Assembly (NCBI RefSeq): GCF_026242055.1
Contig: NZ_JAPJDL010000016.1
Span: forward strand, 62,001-126,000
Source: Lentzea sp. NEAU-D7
GTDB lineage: Bacteria; Actinomycetota; Actinomycetes; Mycobacteriales; Pseudonocardiaceae
Direction: 5' to 3'
DNA length: 64,000 nt
Under the pieces are notes generated by a model that made no database searches, had not been told where the DNA came from, and was given only the letters and a program-made list of their open reading frames with translations. Each line of letters opens with the position of its first letter. Position 1 is the first letter of the stretch. Made by a program: the position numbers and the translations under genes. Below are positions 32,286 through 38,008 of the stretch, piece after piece.

Positions 32286-32327
32286 GCCGCTGCCGCCGCG
32301 TCATTCTCCCGACGCGGCGGCAGCGGC
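32286..32327. terminator. Bidirectional terminator after the nuclease gene
   Basis: Perfect 17-bp arms (32286-32302 and 32311-32327) with an 8-nt loop. The right arm lies inside the last codons of the convergent GPP34 gene, so the hairpin also forms the end of that transcript. Confidence 0.82.
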
Positions 32328-32936
32328 CGCGGACGTCACACCCGCCTGGATCGCTTCCACGGCACGGCGAACGGCATCGCCCGCCCAGTTGCCCCTGGCG
32401 ATCTCCTTGGCCCGCTTCTTCATCTCGCGCTTGTCGCCCTCGAACACCTCGTGCACCGCGTTCACGGCGTGCAGCAGCGTGATCAACGACCCCGTGCGCG
32501 CGTCGGCTCCCCGGTACCCGTGCACGACCTCACCGGTCGCCTTCCGCACCTCGCCGGCCGCCGCCTCGTCGACGATCGGGTAGCTCTTCGCCGGGAAGAT
32601 CCCGAACACCTTCCGCGGCACGACCCGCACGACCTCGCGGCCTTCGAGCTGCGCGACCACGTTGTTCCACAGCCGCTTCCGGATGCGTTCCACCGCGCGG
32701 TGCGCCTTCATCGGCTTGTCGAACCTGCCGAGCGCCTCCTGCAGCACCGGATCCCGCAACGGCGTCGGATCGACGACCCCGAGCTTCTTGCCGTTGGGCT
32801 CGAACGCGACACGTCCCGTGTCCACGAGCTCGATCAGCACGGCACCGGCGAGCGCGTTCTCCACCGACGCCCAACTGGAGTTCACCCTGCCGGTCCTGCT
32901 GTCGATGAACAGCAGAGCCAGATCTTCCTGCAACAT
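32301..32936 (-). CDS. GPP34 (GOLPH3-like) family protein, downstream copy
   Basis: A 211-residue all-helical protein of the GPP34/GOLPH3 family. It begins Leu-Gln-Glu-Asp-Leu-Ala-Leu-Leu, has Ala-Leu-Ala-Gly-Ala-Val-Leu-Ile-Glu-Leu with Gly-Arg-Val, and a basic Lys-Arg-Glu-Met-Lys-Lys-Arg-Ala-Lys late segment. In eukaryotes GOLPH3 binds phosphatidylinositol-4-phosphate at the Golgi; bacterial members are common in actinomycetes and their function is unknown. The tail is Ala-rich. Its ATG overlaps the stop of the upstream paralogue by 1 nt (TGATG), so the two are coupled. Confidence 0.87.
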   Translation of the reverse strand: MLQEDLALLFIDSRTGRVNSSWASVENALAGAVLIELVDTGRVAFEPNGKKLGVVDPTPLRDPVLQEALGRFDKPMKAHRAVERIRKRLWNNVVAQLEGREVVRVVPRKVFGIFPAKSYPIVDEAAAGEVRKATGEVVHGYRGADARTGSLITLLHAVNAVHEVFEGDKREMKKRAKEIARGNWAGDAVRRAVEAIQAGVTSAAAAAASGE

Positions 32937-33589
32937 CAGCTCGAACCTCCCCCGGACGCGGCCACGGTGGAGGCGATCACGGCCGCGGTCACCGCCGCGT
33001 GCACCGCCTCCAGCGCCTTCTTCACCGCGACCCCCGCCCAGTTGCCCGCCGAGATCTGCTTGGCTCGCGCGTTCATCTCCCGCTTGTCACCGGTGAACAC
33101 CTTGTGCAGGCCCTTCACCGCGTACAGCAAGGAGATCAGCGCACCGGTGCGCTCGTCCGGCGCCCTGTACCCCTGCGCCACGTCGCCCACCTGACGACGA
33201 AGGTCGATGACCGCGCCGGGATCGTCGAGCGTGTAGGTCTTCGTCGGGAAGATCCCGAGGATCTTGGACTTCTCGACGGTCAGCACCTCGCGCGCCTCGA
33301 GCCGCGCCATCACGTGGTCCTTCACGCGGTTCCGCAGCTTCTCGACCGCGCGCTGCGGCTTCATCGGCTTGGTGATCCTGCCGAGGAACTCCTGCAGGAA
33401 CTCGTCGTCCAGCGGCGCCGGGTCCACGACCGCGAGCTTCCTGCCGTCCGCCTCGAACGCCACCCGCCCCGAGTCGACCAGCTCCAGCAGCACGGCGCCC
33501 GCGAGCGCGTTCTGGACCGACGTCGAGTCCATCCGCACGCCGCCGGCGACCTCGTCGAGGAAGAGCAGCATCAGGTCTTCGGCCAGCAT
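32936..33589 (-). CDS. GPP34 (GOLPH3-like) family protein, upstream copy
   Basis: A 217-residue paralogue of the next gene with the same order of motifs: Leu-Ala-Glu-Asp-Leu-Met-Leu-Leu, Asn-Ala-Leu-Ala-Gly-Ala-Val-Leu-Leu-Glu-Leu, and Asp-Lys-Arg-Glu-Met-Asn-Ala-Arg-Ala-Lys. Of two adjacent ATG codons the second (33589) is preferred: on the minus strand TAACGT (33601-33596) ends 6 nt before it, the leaderless spacing, and the protein then starts like its paralogue. Before element insertion, the tRNA-Ser(GGA) terminator would have been immediately upstream. Confidence 0.87.
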   Translation of the reverse strand: MLAEDLMLLFLDEVAGGVRMDSTSVQNALAGAVLLELVDSGRVAFEADGRKLAVVDPAPLDDEFLQEFLGRITKPMKPQRAVEKLRNRVKDHVMARLEAREVLTVEKSKILGIFPTKTYTLDDPGAVIDLRRQVGDVAQGYRAPDERTGALISLLYAVKGLHKVFTGDKREMNARAKQISAGNWAGVAVKKALEAVHAAVTAAVIASTVAASGGGSS

Positions 33590-33606
33590 CATGCAACGTT
33601 AACGCC

Positions 33607-33642
33607 GGAAGGGCGCCGAACGTTGAAGTTCGGCGCCCTTCC
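33607..33642 (-). terminator. Displaced terminator of tRNA-Ser(GGA)
   Basis: Perfect 15-bp arms (33607-33621, 33628-33642) with a 6-nt loop lie 4 nt from the left 15-bp repeat. Without the inserted element this hairpin would follow the tRNA-Ser(GGA) 3' end within a few bases, the usual place for a tRNA terminator. Confidence 0.65.
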
Positions 33643-33646
33643 AAGA

Positions 33647-33661
33647 GAGCGGAGGATACGG
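33647..33661. repeat. Left attachment-site repeat (copy of tRNA-Ser 3' end)
   Basis: GAGCGGAGGATACGG is identical to 37087-37101. It corresponds on the minus strand to the last bases of the T stem, the acceptor 3' strand, the discriminator and 3 flanking nt of tRNA-Ser(GGA). Confidence 0.82.
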
Positions 33662-33852
33662 CCGCCAGCGCGCCGATGCCGCCGCGCTCGTGCGAGTTAG
33701 GGCGACGTCATCGGACCACGTCGGGAACGGGGTTACGCAGGTGACGTTCTCTGCTCAGGCGGGCGGCGTCAGCAAGCGGGAACACAAAACGCCGGTGGCC
33801 GCACCTGACCTTTTGCACATCCTCAAAACCGCCAGAAGTCACACTAGGCGCC

Positions 33853-33887
33853 AAGGGCCAGCCCGAACGTTCTCGGGCTGGGTCCTT
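33853..33887 (-). terminator. Terminator of the HTH-membrane protein gene
   Basis: CCAGCCCGA / TCGGGCTGG (33858-33866, 33873-33881) with a 6-nt loop and flanking AAGG/CCTT lies 13 bp beyond the stop of the minus-strand gene at 33900. Confidence 0.75.
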
Positions 33888-33899
33888 GACTGCTGGAGA

Positions 33900-34832
33900 T
33901 CAGCTCCACCAGTCGTCCGTCCCTCGAAGTCTCCGAGACAGTCGCCAGATGCTGCACACCATCGACGTGCTCACCACGAACACGATTCCAAGGATCAGGG
34001 CTTCCATTAGCTCAAGGGTCGAAGCGAGGGTCACGGCGGCGACGACGACGGCCAAGGTGAGGACCACTGCAGCAAGTATGATGCTGATCGAGATCAGCAT
34101 CCGATGGAACCTCACGTCATCACGCAGCGCTGCCATGCGCGGGGAATGACTACGGTCGCCGACCCTATGTCCCGTGTTCGGAAGATCACCGTCTTCTTGC
34201 TCGCCATCGTCTTTGGCGTCTTCGAGACGGTTGTTCACCGTGAGGTTGCCGTCAAAGACGACGTCCCGCGTGGTGCTGGCCGTTGGTTCGTCTGCCTGGT
34301 CGCCAGCAAGTCGGTTTCGCTCAAGCACATCTGCACCGACCCCGCTCAGGTGACGCTCACTGATGACCCGGAGCAAGTGTGCCCGAACCTGAGGGGTTAG
34401 CGCGTCGAAGCAGTCTGCTGCCCTGTCCTCGACCAGCTCGCTGACCACCTCCTCATCAATCGCCTCATCCATCATGCTGGTGGGGATGGCGTAGCTCCGC
34501 GCGTCGCGAGGCTGGGTCTCGCGGATCCTCTCCCACAACCACATCACCCTGCGGATCTCGATGGGGTTCAGCTGGCACGCCTGCGCGAACGCCCGCACCT
34601 GGTCGGGTTTCCTCGGCATCGTGCGCGTCTTCGGCGCCACGAAGTGATAGACCGACGACCTCGGCAGGCCACCGTAGAGGGCGATCTGACCTCGCGTCCG
34701 CCCGGACCACTCCACCATCCTGCGCATCATCGCGACGAACTCGAGCTCGTCCGTTGCGTCGAGCACGAGTTGTTCATCGAACTCGTCCGGCCCGCGATCG
34801 ATTCGGCCCAGGGGGTGCGGTTGCGGCTTCAT
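33900..34832 (-). CDS. HTH protein with C-terminal double membrane helix (element-borne)
   Basis: A 310-residue protein from ATG 34832, which has a perfect GGAGGTG SD. Residues about 30-95 look like an XRE-type helix-turn-helix (Thr-Arg-Gly-Gln-Ile-Ala-Leu-Tyr-Gly-Gly-Leu-Pro-Arg-Ser-Ser-Val-Tyr), followed by Trp-Leu-Trp-Glu-Arg. An acidic middle (about 120-225) leads to two strong membrane helices (about 240-262 and 267-290) and a short basic tail. A DNA-binding-like domain tethered to the membrane is unusual; such proteins may sense envelope signals, but no family is recognised. Start ATG overlaps the upstream gene's TGA (ATGA). Confidence 0.75.
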   Translation of the reverse strand: MKPQPHPLGRIDRGPDEFDEQLVLDATDELEFVAMMRRMVEWSGRTRGQIALYGGLPRSSVYHFVAPKTRTMPRKPDQVRAFAQACQLNPIEIRRVMWLWERIRETQPRDARSYAIPTSMMDEAIDEEVVSELVEDRAADCFDALTPQVRAHLLRVISERHLSGVGADVLERNRLAGDQADEPTASTTRDVVFDGNLTVNNRLEDAKDDGEQEDGDLPNTGHRVGDRSHSPRMAALRDDVRFHRMLISISIILAAVVLTLAVVVAAVTLASTLELMEALILGIVFVVSTSMVCSIWRLSRRLRGTDDWWS

Positions 34833-35065
34833 CGCGCACCTCCGGAACCGAACAACGCGGTGAAGAACGCCTGAACCGCGGTACTGAGGCGCTGCAGCAG
34901 GCCGTTTCGTGGGGGGATGATCACGGTCACGATCGCAGCGACCAAGACCACGGTGAGACCCGTCGCGACCAGAGGATCGAGCGTGACCAGGAAGATCAGC
35001 AGGAAGTCGAAGATGAAGCCGCCGACGACCGTGGCGCACACCGCCGCTGCTTGGGGCCACGTCAT
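34829..35065 (-). CDS. Small two-helix membrane protein (element-borne)
   Basis: About 78 residues from ATG 35065 (Met-Thr-Trp-Pro-Gln). Two hydrophobic helices (about 7-27 and 32-50) and an amphipathic C-terminal helix after Ile-Pro-Pro-Arg-Asn. The open frame continues upstream to 35389, but that part is Pro/Ser-rich and does not look coding; a start further upstream is not excluded because no clear SD precedes ATG 35065. It is translationally coupled to the HTH-membrane gene, suggesting a two-component membrane complex. Family unknown. Confidence 0.6.
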   Translation of the reverse strand: MTWPQAAAVCATVVGGFIFDFLLIFLVTLDPLVATGLTVVLVAAIVTVIIPPRNGLLQRLSTAVQAFFTALFGSGGAR

Positions 35066-36508
35066 CGACGGGTGTGCTGGCTCTTCATTGGCCCGTTGTG
35101 TTGTCTCCGGCCGGTTCGGGCTTGAGTCCCTGTTCTTGTTCAAGCTGAGGCTTGAGCCCCGGTTAGCTCGGGGACTTGCGCCCCGTGGCGCCTTCTTGTT
35201 CGGCGGCACGTCGATGCTCGCTTCCGCCAGCCCCGAGGCGGGGCTGGCCGCTTGCGGGGGCCCTGGAGCCCAGCTCCCGCGGACGGAAGCGGGACGTCCA
35301 GGGCCCCCGCTGAGGGATGCAGTCAAGCTCGCCAGTAGGAACGAGAGCCCGACACCTGTCGAGTGGACGGCAATCCGAACGACAGGCACCCTCTTGGCGT
35401 CGGACCAAGAGGGATACGACGATCATGCTTTCACGCGTGTAAGTCGGAAAACAGACTCGCGAGGGAGAAGGTGTCCAGCGGAGGCCAGATTCACGACGTC
35501 TTGGAAGCGTGCGTTTGCCATTGGAAATGCTTTCAGTGTCCAACAGAGCCCATTCCAACTCGTCTGGATTTCGCGACGCGAGTGTCTCACTCGAACTTCA
35601 TCGAGGGCATCGGCGCTGTTCAGGGCCCTTGCGAAACTCCAACGTCCGGTTGGACACCATGCAAGCGTTGGACGTACCTAGTATTCGTGTACGCGGAACG
35701 GCAGTTAGGGAAGCTAAAGGTCGTTCTGTATTGGTGCTCTCGCAGAGGGATGCAGTCGGGCACCGCCGGAAGGAACAAAACGATGGACCTGTCCGCGGCA
35801 ACGGGCAGCCATCACCGATAACACCGCGGAGCCCCAGATCGCCCGCCGCAGCGCGTGATCTGGGGCTTTGCTTTGGGCCGTCCAACTCAAGGCTGGCTGA
35901 ACGACGGTTGATCGTTCCAGTGACAACGCAGCTTCAGCGCGGGTCAGTGGCCGCGCCGTTTGAGCGTGGCGTCCCAAAGCAGCACGGCCCCCCGCCTGCA
36001 GTTCGCGGCTTTGCTCGCGCACGTCGCTCAGCCTTTCCCCGAAGGCTGAGCGCGGGCACGGCATAGGATCTGTGAACGGCCGTCCAGGCTCCTTCGGCAG
36101 ATTGCGGACGGTCCCCTCAGGTTCCCGTCGAGCAGTTGAGCTCCTGCATGCCGGTCAGCTCGCGCAGTTGGCCTGAGGTCGTCATGGCGCCCTCGTCCAC
36201 CAGGGTGGAGCATGGTCGCCGCGTAGGGCTTAGCGAGTCGCAGCGCTTCGTCCGCGAGATCAATGGTTCAGCTGGGGTCTTCTGCCGGCTGGTCACAGCA
36301 CGTGGCCGTTGGACGCCGTGATGTCCAACTGGGCGTGACGGTGTCCAATGCAGCGGTGTCCAGAGCGGCGGTGCCGGACGAGATGATGGCGAGCGGGGCG
36401 CACGAAGGCGGTGATTCCGAGCAGCACAAGCCTCATTAGCAGCGGAGCTCGTCGCCTCCGCGAACTCAAGCGGCAGCGCGACAGCGGAAGGTCAAGAAAG
36501 CGTCGTGC
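35066..36508. other. Element interior without recognisable genes
   Basis: About 1.4 kb in which open frames on both strands have mixed, low-quality codon use and no recognisable domain. The GC level drops in 35.4-35.8 kb. Besides the terminator at 35830-35867 it holds CCAGGGCCCCCGC-type inverted repeats near 35260-35310, where GGGGGCCCTGGAGCCCAGCT is answered by GGACGTCCAGGGCCCCC. It probably contains decayed genes and perhaps a non-coding RNA. Confidence 0.5.
35830..35867 (+). terminator. Terminator inside the element
   Basis: AGCCCCAGATC / GATCTGGGGCT (35830-35840, 35857-35867) followed by TTTGCTTT on the plus strand. No protein gene clearly ends before it, so it may close a non-coding or decayed transcript. 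Confidence 0.7.
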
Positions 36509-36746
36509 ATGGTCGTTGAGAAGTGGCTGACGCACTGGTGGAGAACATCGCTGCGCCCACAGCCTGACCAAACACGATGGTGGGTCTATCGCGCGTCGGT
36601 CCACAAGCATCTCATCTCGGCGTTGGCTGCGCCGCATCGACCGCTTGCGGCCTGGGCACTTGGAAGTTCTCCACGCCCGGATGATCGCGAACGGGCTGGA
36701 GCCGGGCACGGCGCATCTCCTTCACCGCACAATGGTCCGAACACGC
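36509..36746 (+). pseudogene. Tyrosine integrase N-terminal fragment, frameshifted
   Basis: Frame one encodes Val-Glu-Lys-Trp-Leu-Thr-His-Trp-Trp and Tyr-Arg-Ala-Ser-Val-His-Lys-His-Leu-Ile. After a shift near 36620, frame two continues Leu-Arg-Arg-Ile-Asp-Arg-Leu-Arg-Pro-Gly-His-Leu-Glu-Val-Leu-His-Ala-Arg-Met, then Gly-Leu-Glu-Pro-Gly-Thr-Ala-His and His-Arg-Thr. This is the arm/core-binding (SAM-like) domain of actinobacterial site-specific integrases. The catalytic domain (Arg-His-Arg-Tyr) is absent. Its place about 340 bp from the tRNA repeat is where AICE integrase genes lie. Confidence 0.72.
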
Positions 36747-36747
36747 G

Positions 36748-36986
36748 ATGTTGACGCGGTACCTGCACATCCCGCACGAACTGACCGACGCCATCGTGGC
36801 GCGGGTTGGCAGGCCCTCGTGGGCAACTCCGACAGCGGTCGACGAAGCCGAGCTGATCGAGGAGCAACGCGCGGCTCTTGTCCAGCTCGTCTCCACCCTG
36901 CCGCGGAGTTGGCGACGAGGCTCGCCGATGTGCTCCCAGGCGACGCCGAGGAGGACGGTCCCAACGGCGCTCCCGTGTCGGCGTAA
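36748..36986 (+). pseudogene. Broken gene of unknown function beside the integrase fragment
   Basis: One frame reads Tyr-Leu-His-Ile-Pro-His-Glu-Leu-Thr-Asp-Ala-Ile-Val-Ala-Arg-Val-Gly and Asp-Glu-Ala-Glu-Leu-Ile-Glu-Glu-Gln-Arg-Ala-Ala-Leu. After a shift near 36900 another frame completes it: Ala-Glu-Leu-Ala-Thr-Arg-Leu-Ala-Asp-Val-Leu-Pro-Gly-Asp, ending at TAA 36986. The two halves read as one helical protein, so a frameshift is likely. No family recognised. Confidence 0.45.
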
Positions 36987-37048
36987 GCGGGTGCGACAAC
37001 CATCAGCGCAGTCTGATAGCCAGAGCGACTGAGACCCGCAGATGACAA

Positions 37049-37079
37049 AGGCCCAGCCACCTGAGTAGGTGCCGGGCCT
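37049..37079 (-). terminator. Element-supplied terminator for tRNA-Ser(GGA)
   Basis: On the minus strand AGGCCCGGCACC-TACTCA-GGTGGCTGGGCCT, an imperfect stem, is followed by TTTGTC, 10 nt after the tRNA 3' end. It replaces the tRNA's displaced hairpin at 33607-33642. Confidence 0.7.
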
Positions 37080-37086
37080 CTGACCT

Positions 37087-37101
37087 GAGCGGAGGATACG
37101 G
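37087..37101. repeat. Right attachment-site repeat within tRNA-Ser(GGA)
   Basis: GAGCGGAGGATACGG, identical to 33647-33661. The element restores the tRNA 3' end, so the gene stays functional. Confidence 0.82.
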
Positions 37102-37174
37102 GATTTGAACCCGTGAGGGGGTGAACCCAACACGATTTCCAGTCGTGCGCACTAGGCCGCTATGCGAATCCTCC
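37090..37174 (-). tRNA. tRNA-Ser (anticodon GGA)
   Basis: The acceptor GGAGGAT (37174-37168) pairs with ATCCTCC (37097-37091), with discriminator G at 37090. The anticodon arm CACGA-CTGGAAA-TCGTG gives GGA. Long variable arm; T loop TTCAAAT. Host site of the integrative element. Confidence 0.95.
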
Positions 37175-37398
37175 GTGGAGAACCCTACCGGACGGGTGTT
37201 CCGGGGCCCAAAACGGGGGTGGACCTCCGGTCCGGCTCCCGTCACCCGCGTGGACGCAGACCCCGTCCGGCAACGCGCCTAGCCTGGTGAACACATGTGG
37301 AGGGGAGTACTCCCGAAGCAGCGGTGTCGTCAACACGGAGCCCACTGCGGGGCGCCCGGTGCCGTTGGCCAACGAGATCGTTTCGCTGGTGGAGGAGA

Positions 37399-37433
37399 CC
37401 TCCGGTTTAGCTGCCATGCGCTTAAACCGGAGG
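37399..37433 (+). promoter_or_regulatory. Hairpin sequestering the ribosome binding site of the 53-residue protein
   Basis: CCTCCGGTTTA (37399-37409) pairs perfectly with TAAACCGGAGG (37423-37433) across a 13-nt loop. The 3' arm ends in the GGAGG that is the SD sequence 7 nt before GTG 37441, so folding would hide it. A TAGCCT -10-like box at 37280-37285 would give a leader of about 150 nt. Confidence 0.65.
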
Positions 37434-37440
37434 CTCCAAC

Positions 37441-37602
37441 GTGCTCGCCGTTCTCGACGTCCTCAACGACGTCGCGGGAATCCTCAGCGCTCTCGTAGCC
37501 GTTCCCGCCGCGATCGTCACCCTCGTCCGCTCCCGACGCGCTCGGCGTGACCTCCCGCCCGCGCCGGAGTCCGGGGCCGACGCGGCGCCGGAAAAATCCT
37601 GA
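37441..37602 (+). CDS. Small single-helix membrane protein
   Basis: A 53-residue protein from GTG 37441 with GGAGG at ideal spacing. Residues about 5-28 form a hydrophobic helix (Ile-Leu-Ser-Ala-Leu-Val-Ala-Val-Pro-Ala-Ala-Ile-Val), then a basic Arg-Ser-Arg-Arg-Ala-Arg-Arg stretch and an acidic Pro/Ala tail, so the C-terminus is probably cytoplasmic. No family recognised. It lies between tRNA-Ser(GGA) and the YciI-sigma operon. Expression is likely controlled by the RBS hairpin. Confidence 0.6.
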   Translation: MLAVLDVLNDVAGILSALVAVPAAIVTLVRSRRARRDLPPAPESGADAAPEKS

Positions 37603-37669
37603 CGTCCGTGTCGATCTGGCGGGGGGCCGCTCGTCGTGATCCCGTAAGACCGAACCGAGGAGGACGAAC

Positions 37670-38008
37670 GTGAAGTACATGCTGTTGATCTACGCGGCCG
37701 CCGACCAGCAGCCTACCTGCACCGTTGCGGACTGGATCGCCTACGAGAAGGAGATGAGGGACGCGGGCGTCCTGGTCTCCGGGCACTCGCTGGCCGACCT
37801 GGTCACCGCGACCACCGTCCAGGTCGGACAGGACGGGAAGCGCACCGTCACCGACGGGCCGTTCGCCGAGACCCGCGAGGTGCTGGGCGGCTACGACGTC
37901 ATCGACGTGCCCGACCTCGACGCGGCGCTGGAGTGGGCCGCGAAGTGCCCCGGCTCGCGCGACGGCGGGGCGGTCGTCGTGCGGCCCATCGCCGAGTTCG
38001 ACTTCTGA
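37670..38008 (+). CDS. YciI/DGPF-domain protein paired with the ECF sigma factor
   Basis: A 112-residue alpha/beta (ferredoxin-like dimeric) protein. It begins Met-Lys-Tyr-Met-Leu-Leu-Ile-Tyr, has the Asp-Gly-Pro-Phe-Ala-Glu-Thr motif that names the DGPF group, and ends in a Glu-Trp-Ala-Ala-Lys-Cys-Pro segment followed by the terminal strand. ATG 37670 follows GAGGAGG. DGPF genes typically precede ECF42-group sigma factors, as here (10-bp gap). Their exact role with the sigma factor is not established. Confidence 0.88.
   Translation: MKYMLLIYAAADQQPTCTVADWIAYEKEMRDAGVLVSGHSLADLVTATTVQVGQDGKRTVTDGPFAETREVLGGYDVIDVPDLDAALEWAAKCPGSRDGGAVVVRPIAEFDF

Follow-up and report, generated by a model that had tools for sequence, protein, structure and literature searches.

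At one point in a 64,000-nucleotide stretch of the Lentzea sp. NEAU-D7 genome (contig NZ_JAPJDL010000016.1; hereafter the window), 3.4 kb of DNA beside an intact tRNA-Ser(GGA) gene is bounded by two copies of a 15-bp sequence, GAGCGGAGGATACGG. An earlier note, made from the sequence alone, had read this stretch as a decayed integrative element holding an integrase fragment and a pair of coupled genes, and we compared the locus with related genomes, plasmids and family collections (Table 1). Both repeat copies proved exact, the second lying inside the 3' end of a tRNA that ARAGORN called complete, and no further copy occurred in the window when up to two mismatches were allowed; two matches were reached in 2 of 100 shuffles (mean 0.24). 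The GC content between the repeats was indeed lower than that of the 10-kb flanks (63.9% versus 70.4% and 71.2%), and no value as low occurred in 106 windows of the same size from the rest of the 64 kb. A GC-rich hairpin ends at about position 33642, 4 nt from the left repeat.

Table 1. Features at the tRNA-Ser(GGA) locus, in window coordinates. A dot means that no strand is assigned; att, attachment site; HTH, helix-turn-helix; TM, transmembrane. pCM32 and pRL1 are plasmids; G012, G023, G050 and G185 are genomes described in the text.
Feature	Position	Strand	Remarks
Ancestral chromosomal terminator-like hairpin that follows tRNA-Ser(GGA) in congeners	33607..33642	-	parted from the tRNA by the insertion
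Left direct repeat	33647..33661	.	probable truncated attL; 13 of 55 core bases left, plus 2 matching flank bases
Interior of the probable element remnant	33662..37086	.	missing at the site in 23/23 congeners; GC 63.9%
Intact gene for a 310-aa protein with an HTH-like domain at the N-terminus and hydrophobic (TM) segments at the C-terminus	33900..34832	-	relative on pRL1
Intact gene, 78-aa small membrane protein	34829..35065	-	4-bp overlap with the HTH gene; start picked by comparison with pRL1
Conserved, apparently structured non-coding region, divergent to the pair	35207..35880	+ (inferred from the 3' hairpin)	pRL1 68-71%; same landmarks in G185
Box 1, GGGATGCAGTC	35314..35324	+	
TGTCCAA ... 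TTGGACA inverted boxes	35537..35656	.	starts 113 nt apart; predicted to pair as a long-range helix, which the consensus fold contains
Box 2, GGGATGCAGTC	35747..35757	+	
Terminator-like hairpin, then TTTGCTTTG	35830..35867	+	absent from the terminator-scanner output; pRL1 has a counterpart
Second cluster, three TGTCCA boxes	36322..36362	.	stretch picked after the boxes were seen
Tyrosine integrase pseudogene	36453..36985	+	two parts of the G012 integrase region, ~760 bp between them lost; in-frame stops
Putative element-borne replacement terminator-like hairpin for the tRNA	37050..37078	-	counterparts adjoin the att core in pCM32, G012, G050 and the possible G023 scar
Right direct repeat, attR	37087..37101	.	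within the tRNA 3' end
Intact tRNA-Ser(GGA), integration target	37089..37174	-	ARAGORN

A DNA search of 40 relatives, 23 of them congeners, with the neighbouring GPP34 gene and its terminator located the site in every congener; short matches in other families (rows L025-L030) were removed before empty sites were counted. None of the 23 congeners carried the 3.4 kb at this site. Eighteen presented a clean empty site of the form the earlier note had proposed to look for, with the terminator hairpin followed by a single repeat copy formed by the 3' end of tRNA-Ser(GGA). The hairpin of these 18 sites, which ends 14-19 nt ahead of GGATACGG, is the same one that lies 4 nt from the left repeat in the window, where it had been judged suited to end the tRNA. 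Three other sites (L005, L007 and L009) were empty, but the space from terminator to tRNA contained an extra hairpin, and one (L003, in genome G012) held a different element of ~12 kb at the same tRNA, also with the extra hairpin. At the remaining site (L024, in genome G023) the ancestral terminator was missing and an element-type terminator adjoined the tRNA with no element present; this site (L024/L096) is perhaps the scar of a lost element that left its terminator behind. Neither an ancestral 3.4 kb nor a lack of empty sites was thus seen.

In L003, L005, L007 and L009, the extra hairpin, GGCGGCGAGTGCTC...GAGCACTCGCCGCC, separates the ancestral terminator from the tRNA copy. When 30 genomes (the genome of L005 being outside the 30) were searched for its exact pattern, this turned up in 3 and nowhere but at this site. 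The hairpin is perhaps the scar of another element.

The predicted integrase fragment proved to be a pseudogene. Its two parts, 36453-36730 and 36733-36985, share 79% and 70% DNA identity with parts of the G012 integrase region that lie 759 bp apart there. In the numbering of the integrase of plasmid pCM32, the first piece ends at residue 152 and the second resumes at residue 404, and the Phage_integrase domain of that protein spans residues 301-416; by this comparison, most of the catalytic domain is lost from the window integrase. Because the catalytic domain is mostly gone and stops interrupt the frame, the remnant would not be expected to excise itself with its own integrase.

Among plasmids, the nearest DNA match of the integrase remnant is pCM32 from Saccharopolyspora endophytica (NZ_KM260754), in which a whole integrase gene (495 aa) is followed by a hairpin and then by a copy of the 3' half of the same tRNA-Ser(GGA), its attP. 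Two related elements are integrated: that of G012, 11,951 bp long, whose direct repeat at the same tRNA spans 55 bp, and that of genome G050, 11,666 bp long with a 56-bp repeat, whose integrase is 80% identical over 434 aligned positions and matches 433 of the 495 residues of the pCM32 protein. All three resemble the window in their tyrosine integrase family, their target at the 3' end of tRNA-Ser(GGA), the orientation of the integrase C-terminus toward the tRNA, and the terminator-like hairpin beside the att core. They differ from it in size (11.7-14.6 kb) and in having repeats of 55-56 bp where integrated, compared with 15 bp in the window. Given the repeat length in the two integrated relatives, the core accounts for only 13 of the 15 bases repeated in the window, and its exact 31-nt pattern has a single copy in the window's own genome; the short left repeat appears to be an att site trimmed by a deletion.

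The locus therefore has the homologous tyrosine integrase beside the tRNA, as a pseudogene, and the insertion at the tRNA 3' end with a terminator-like hairpin of its own. It lacks the 55-56 bp direct repeat, with 13 core bases left; since we read this as truncation, we speak of a remnant of the pCM32-type family rather than of a member. Insertion, family, target, integrase deletion and short left repeat are each documented by sequence comparison. Empty sites in congeners, together with related elements that use the same tRNA with the integrase adjoining, support the earlier note in its central claim, and we consider it highly probable that the 3.4-kb stretch is the decayed remnant of an integrative element at tRNA-Ser(GGA). 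Several observations count against this conclusion. The left boundary depends on 13 core bases. The HTH protein of the window found no match in the G012 and G050 elements. Finally, the G012 integrase region matches pCM32 in two overlapping pieces in different frames (60% over 326 aa and 74% over 174 aa; L093, 6041-7503), so that this integrase may be frameshifted, misassembled or affected by a sequence error, and perhaps broken too.

We also considered whether the element belongs with the actinomycete integrative and conjugative elements (AICEs), as the earlier note had suggested. In the relevant part of one survey, an AICE is a fragment with int, tra and rep together, and fragments with fewer of these probably represent AICE remnants, prophages, transposons or other islands (PMC3218068); AICEs have also been described, in a passage of another paper, as prone to decay (PMC9513070). 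Like AICEs, the window element would have used a tyrosine integrase encoded next to the att site to enter the 3' end of a tRNA gene. Unlike them, it has no Rep or FtsK/SpoIIIE-type Tra that we could find, in a Pfam scan that covered 7 proteins rather than every interior open reading frame (ORF). Among the proteins of pCM32 itself are a Prim-Pol protein and an ATPase that matches Zot; when 15 pCM32 proteins were searched against the window, the integrase alone matched, and matches in a plasmid DNA search with the window were confined to the integrase and the region of the gene pair. With neither a rep nor a tra gene found, we rejected AICE membership: the window holds, on this evidence, what is left of an AICE-like element rather than an AICE.

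The membrane/HTH gene pair between the repeats is intact and overlapping, as the earlier note had described it. The HTH protein gave a hit to HTH_31 below the curated cut-off (E 0.0098), and nothing for the pair stood above the cut-off in Pfam, where the 78-aa protein was scanned only within a longer ORF of 186 aa. Neither protein had a hit in NCBIfam, PADLOC or PHROGs, the best match in a PDB sequence search had an E value of 0.32, and an AlphaFold model of the HTH protein (mean predicted local distance difference test score 49) was not used. A search with the HTH protein matched 6 records, and pCM32 was not among them. One was pRL1, a linear plasmid of Streptomyces sp. 44030 (NC_010849), which has the same gene pair: the HTH proteins share 47-49% amino acid identity, and the small membrane proteins (78 aa in the window, 75 aa in pRL1) share 59%. 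The pRL1 HTH protein had weak hits in PHROGs (best E 0.008).

Matches to the HTH protein were found in 32 of 297 genomes of the family (E <= 1e-6, own genome counted). We surveyed 31 loci, consisting of 30 fetched of the 41 HTH matches, the window among them, plus pRL1. A membrane ORF ended within 11 nt of a possible start of the HTH gene in 24 of these loci, with the 4-bp offset in 18; the other 7 did not qualify by this simple measure of hydropathy. Of the 31 HTH ORFs, 17 had membrane segments at the C-terminus. The window's own genome has a second HTH match outside the element (G000:C23:156492-156743, 41% over 84 aa), with similar ones in 12 congeners.

DNA similarity to pRL1 (about 69% identity) runs past the two genes and across about 35207-35870, a region that diverges from the pair. 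The earlier note had taken the interior to be gene-poor and to have kept only two coupled genes; genes are indeed few and the pair intact, but this conserved and apparently structured non-coding region beside them had been overlooked. Its identity to pRL1 was 70.9% over 611 ungapped columns, or 64.6% with gaps counted, compared with 64.9% and 73.0% for all codon bases of the two genes and 60.3% (78 sites) and 57.1% (28 sites) for their fourfold-degenerate sites. By these figures the non-coding region looks at least as constrained as the genes of the pair. pRL1 differs from the window in being a linear plasmid and in having no match to the integrase part.

Folded as a single strand, the whole region gave z scores of -7.0 in the window, -6.6 in pRL1 and -4.8 in G185, a genome of the same family with a third copy (20 shuffles each). 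The consensus fold of the window and pRL1 had an energy of -175.7 kcal/mol, compared with -120.5 +/- 7.0 kcal/mol for 100 column-shuffled alignments, none of which was as low (z -7.9). Two-sided compensatory changes (14) did not exceed the shuffled-alignment null (12.7 +/- 2.7), so these data are evidence for folding and not for covariation, which leaves an RNA unproven by that measure. A search of 33500-37700 with the Rfam 15 covariance models at E values up to 1 returned the tRNA and one hit below the gathering score (34059-34101), and a known RNA family for the non-coding region was therefore rejected.

Landmarks recur in the regions of the window, pRL1 and G185. Two GGGATGCAGTC boxes lie 433, 415 and 437 bp apart, respectively. 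The TGTCCAA and TTGGACA boxes are 112-113 bp apart in all three, an arrangement seen in 1 of 20000 shuffles and nowhere in 528 kb of other loci. TGTCCA boxes number 3, 4 and 5 in the three regions compared with ~0.25 expected, counts reached by 4, 1 and 0 of 2000 local shuffles. The G185 copy adjoins the gene pair, and G185 was known as the best non-self match of the HTH protein before the pattern was searched. A profile of the window and pRL1 finds this copy only weakly, so the case for a third member is made by the boxes, the order in which they occur and the gene pair next to them.

The paired GGGATGCAGTC pattern (415-437 bp) occurred in 2 of 390 genomes of the family, the window's own and G185, and in 1 of 394 genomes of the class (own), with no match in 392 genomes of the genus of G765 or in viral contigs; further viral scans likewise gave no matches. 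A longer pattern, GGGATGCAGTC-N-AGGAAC-N-CGGCAA, had one match in viral contigs (L065, AT-rich) and five in genome contigs, none of the five being actinobacterial by record title, and we took these as chance. That pattern was too strict, and the genome-wide scan with it possibly did not include the window's own genome; AGGAAC and CGGCAA are missing at these places in G185, so the strict scan is blind to such copies. A 54-bp match in genome G310 (L064/L095) was dropped, as it lies inside coding sequence. Motif, BLAST and profile searches near the other pairs examined brought up no comparable region, although a diverged one could escape them.

A ParA-type gene lies within about 5 kb of the region in both pRL1 and G185. 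At the G185 locus (L073; G185:C21:45000-62000), the pair and non-coding region occur with this type of gene and a weak recombinase match, and some ORFs resemble AbiE-type and lanthipeptide genes by eye. Pfam scans of 10 further pRL1 proteins found no replication family above the cut-off, nor anything else above it.

What the surviving module does can be proposed only tentatively. Shared with pRL1, it would comprise the small membrane protein gene, the HTH/membrane gene that it overlaps, and the divergent non-coding region of ~650 bp, which might be a transcribed RNA or a locus acting in cis to maintain plasmid-like replicons or to control their replication. The HTH protein may act with this region, perhaps by binding GTGTCCAAC boxes, with the small membrane protein as its partner. 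By analogy with the phage origins described below, and by that alone, a plasmid maintenance or replication-control locus is a function that we regard as plausible, short of probable. More speculatively still, 35207-35880 could represent a new class of structured RNA of ~650 nt, with two GGGAUGCAGUC boxes, a UGUCCAA/UUGGACA long-range helix and an intrinsic terminator, working with a membrane-anchored HTH protein and its small partner in actinobacterial plasmid replication or maintenance and brought into the chromosome by an integrative element.

A precedent of similar size comes from non-RepA cluster A mycobacteriophages, whose prophages are stated in the relevant portion of one report to replicate from non-coding RNA regions of ~600-670 bp beside parA, with no protein needed (PMC7157519). 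The RNA-based origins of RedRock and Alma are like the window region in non-coding size, and their adjoining parA may be likened to the ParA-type genes near the pRL1 and G185 copies. In contrast, they share no box with it and gave no profile match, and we rejected homology for these two of the five described phages.

That lack of relation is one of several results that speak against a structured RNA. Six shorter pieces of the region had fold z scores of -1.4 to -5.0, unexceptional for the parts; compensatory changes did not exceed their null; no promoter-like site was found at the region, and terminator-like sites were no more frequent than expected; and the profile match to G185 (E 0.09) covered only the part around box 2. 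A serious alternative, which we think quite possible without favouring it, is that the region acts as DNA, as an origin or operator array of iteron-like GTGTCCAAC boxes bound by the HTH protein, with folding incidental. The TGTCCA enrichment in the three regions and the second cluster at 36322-36362 fit such an array, as do the position directly upstream of the gene pair and covariation that stays at the null. Fold energies far beyond those of shuffles, a terminator-like hairpin with a counterpart in pRL1, and conserved boxes distant from the gene start are harder to reconcile with it.

The pair could also be phage-defence or toxin-antitoxin cargo, with the non-coding region as its antitoxin or regulatory RNA. 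A small hydrophobic protein encoded beside an HTH protein, likely in translational coupling and with a membrane ORF equally close in most of the surveyed loci, would suit such a system, and so would the patchy occurrence in the family. We think this unlikely, since neither protein of the window pair had a hit in PADLOC, NCBIfam or PHROGs and the region was not found beside the other pairs, within the reach of those searches. Whether the element was always small is a separate matter. Short, exact repeats around an intact gene pair might suggest a natural 3.4-kb mini-element, the other possibility named in the earlier note. However, the left att site appears truncated and the integrase is internally deleted, with ~760 bp missing and stops in the frame, and the relatives are several times larger with longer repeats where integrated. 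In addition, a DNA search of 390 family genomes with the non-coding part found it once, in its own genome, apart from the coding match in G310. These observations favour a remnant and leave a mini-element very improbable, and we rejected it. That short repeats flank an ancestral 3.4 kb by chance is practically out of the question and was rejected, being contradicted by the lack of this DNA in all congeners and by two other genomes with occupied sites and long repeats at the same tRNA.

The history that we propose for the decayed remnant begins with insertion at tRNA-Ser(GGA) by a pCM32-type element with a tyrosine integrase. The element would have brought a copy of the tRNA 3' part and a terminator hairpin of its own, so that the tRNA stayed intact. 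Later deletions would then have taken most of the element, including the catalytic part of the integrase and the left end with 42 of 55 att bases, and rep and tra genes were presumably lost in the same decay.

The flanks of the site also vary. To the left, 32301-33592 comprises two tandem GPP34 (Golgi phosphoprotein 3) genes, and the number of tandem matches varies in congeners. To the right of the tRNA lies a 366-bp segment (37221-37586) in which a short hydrophobic ORF comes after a perfect 10-bp hairpin (CTCCGGTTTA/TAAACCGGAG). Among the congener loci compared, only L022 (G006) matches this segment (83% over 344 bp); its flanks directly adjoin in many other congeners, some loci being too short to tell.

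In itself, a remnant of this kind is ordinary for actinomycetes. It nevertheless shows clearly how an att site can decay and how a mobile element can substitute its own terminator for that of a tRNA; G023 carries a likely scar from which the element has gone while its terminator stayed. The surviving module is of more interest: a non-coding region next to a membrane/HTH pair without a curated family, conserved in this chromosome and on a linear plasmid of Streptomyces, suggests a plasmid-maintenance or regulatory locus that is directly testable.

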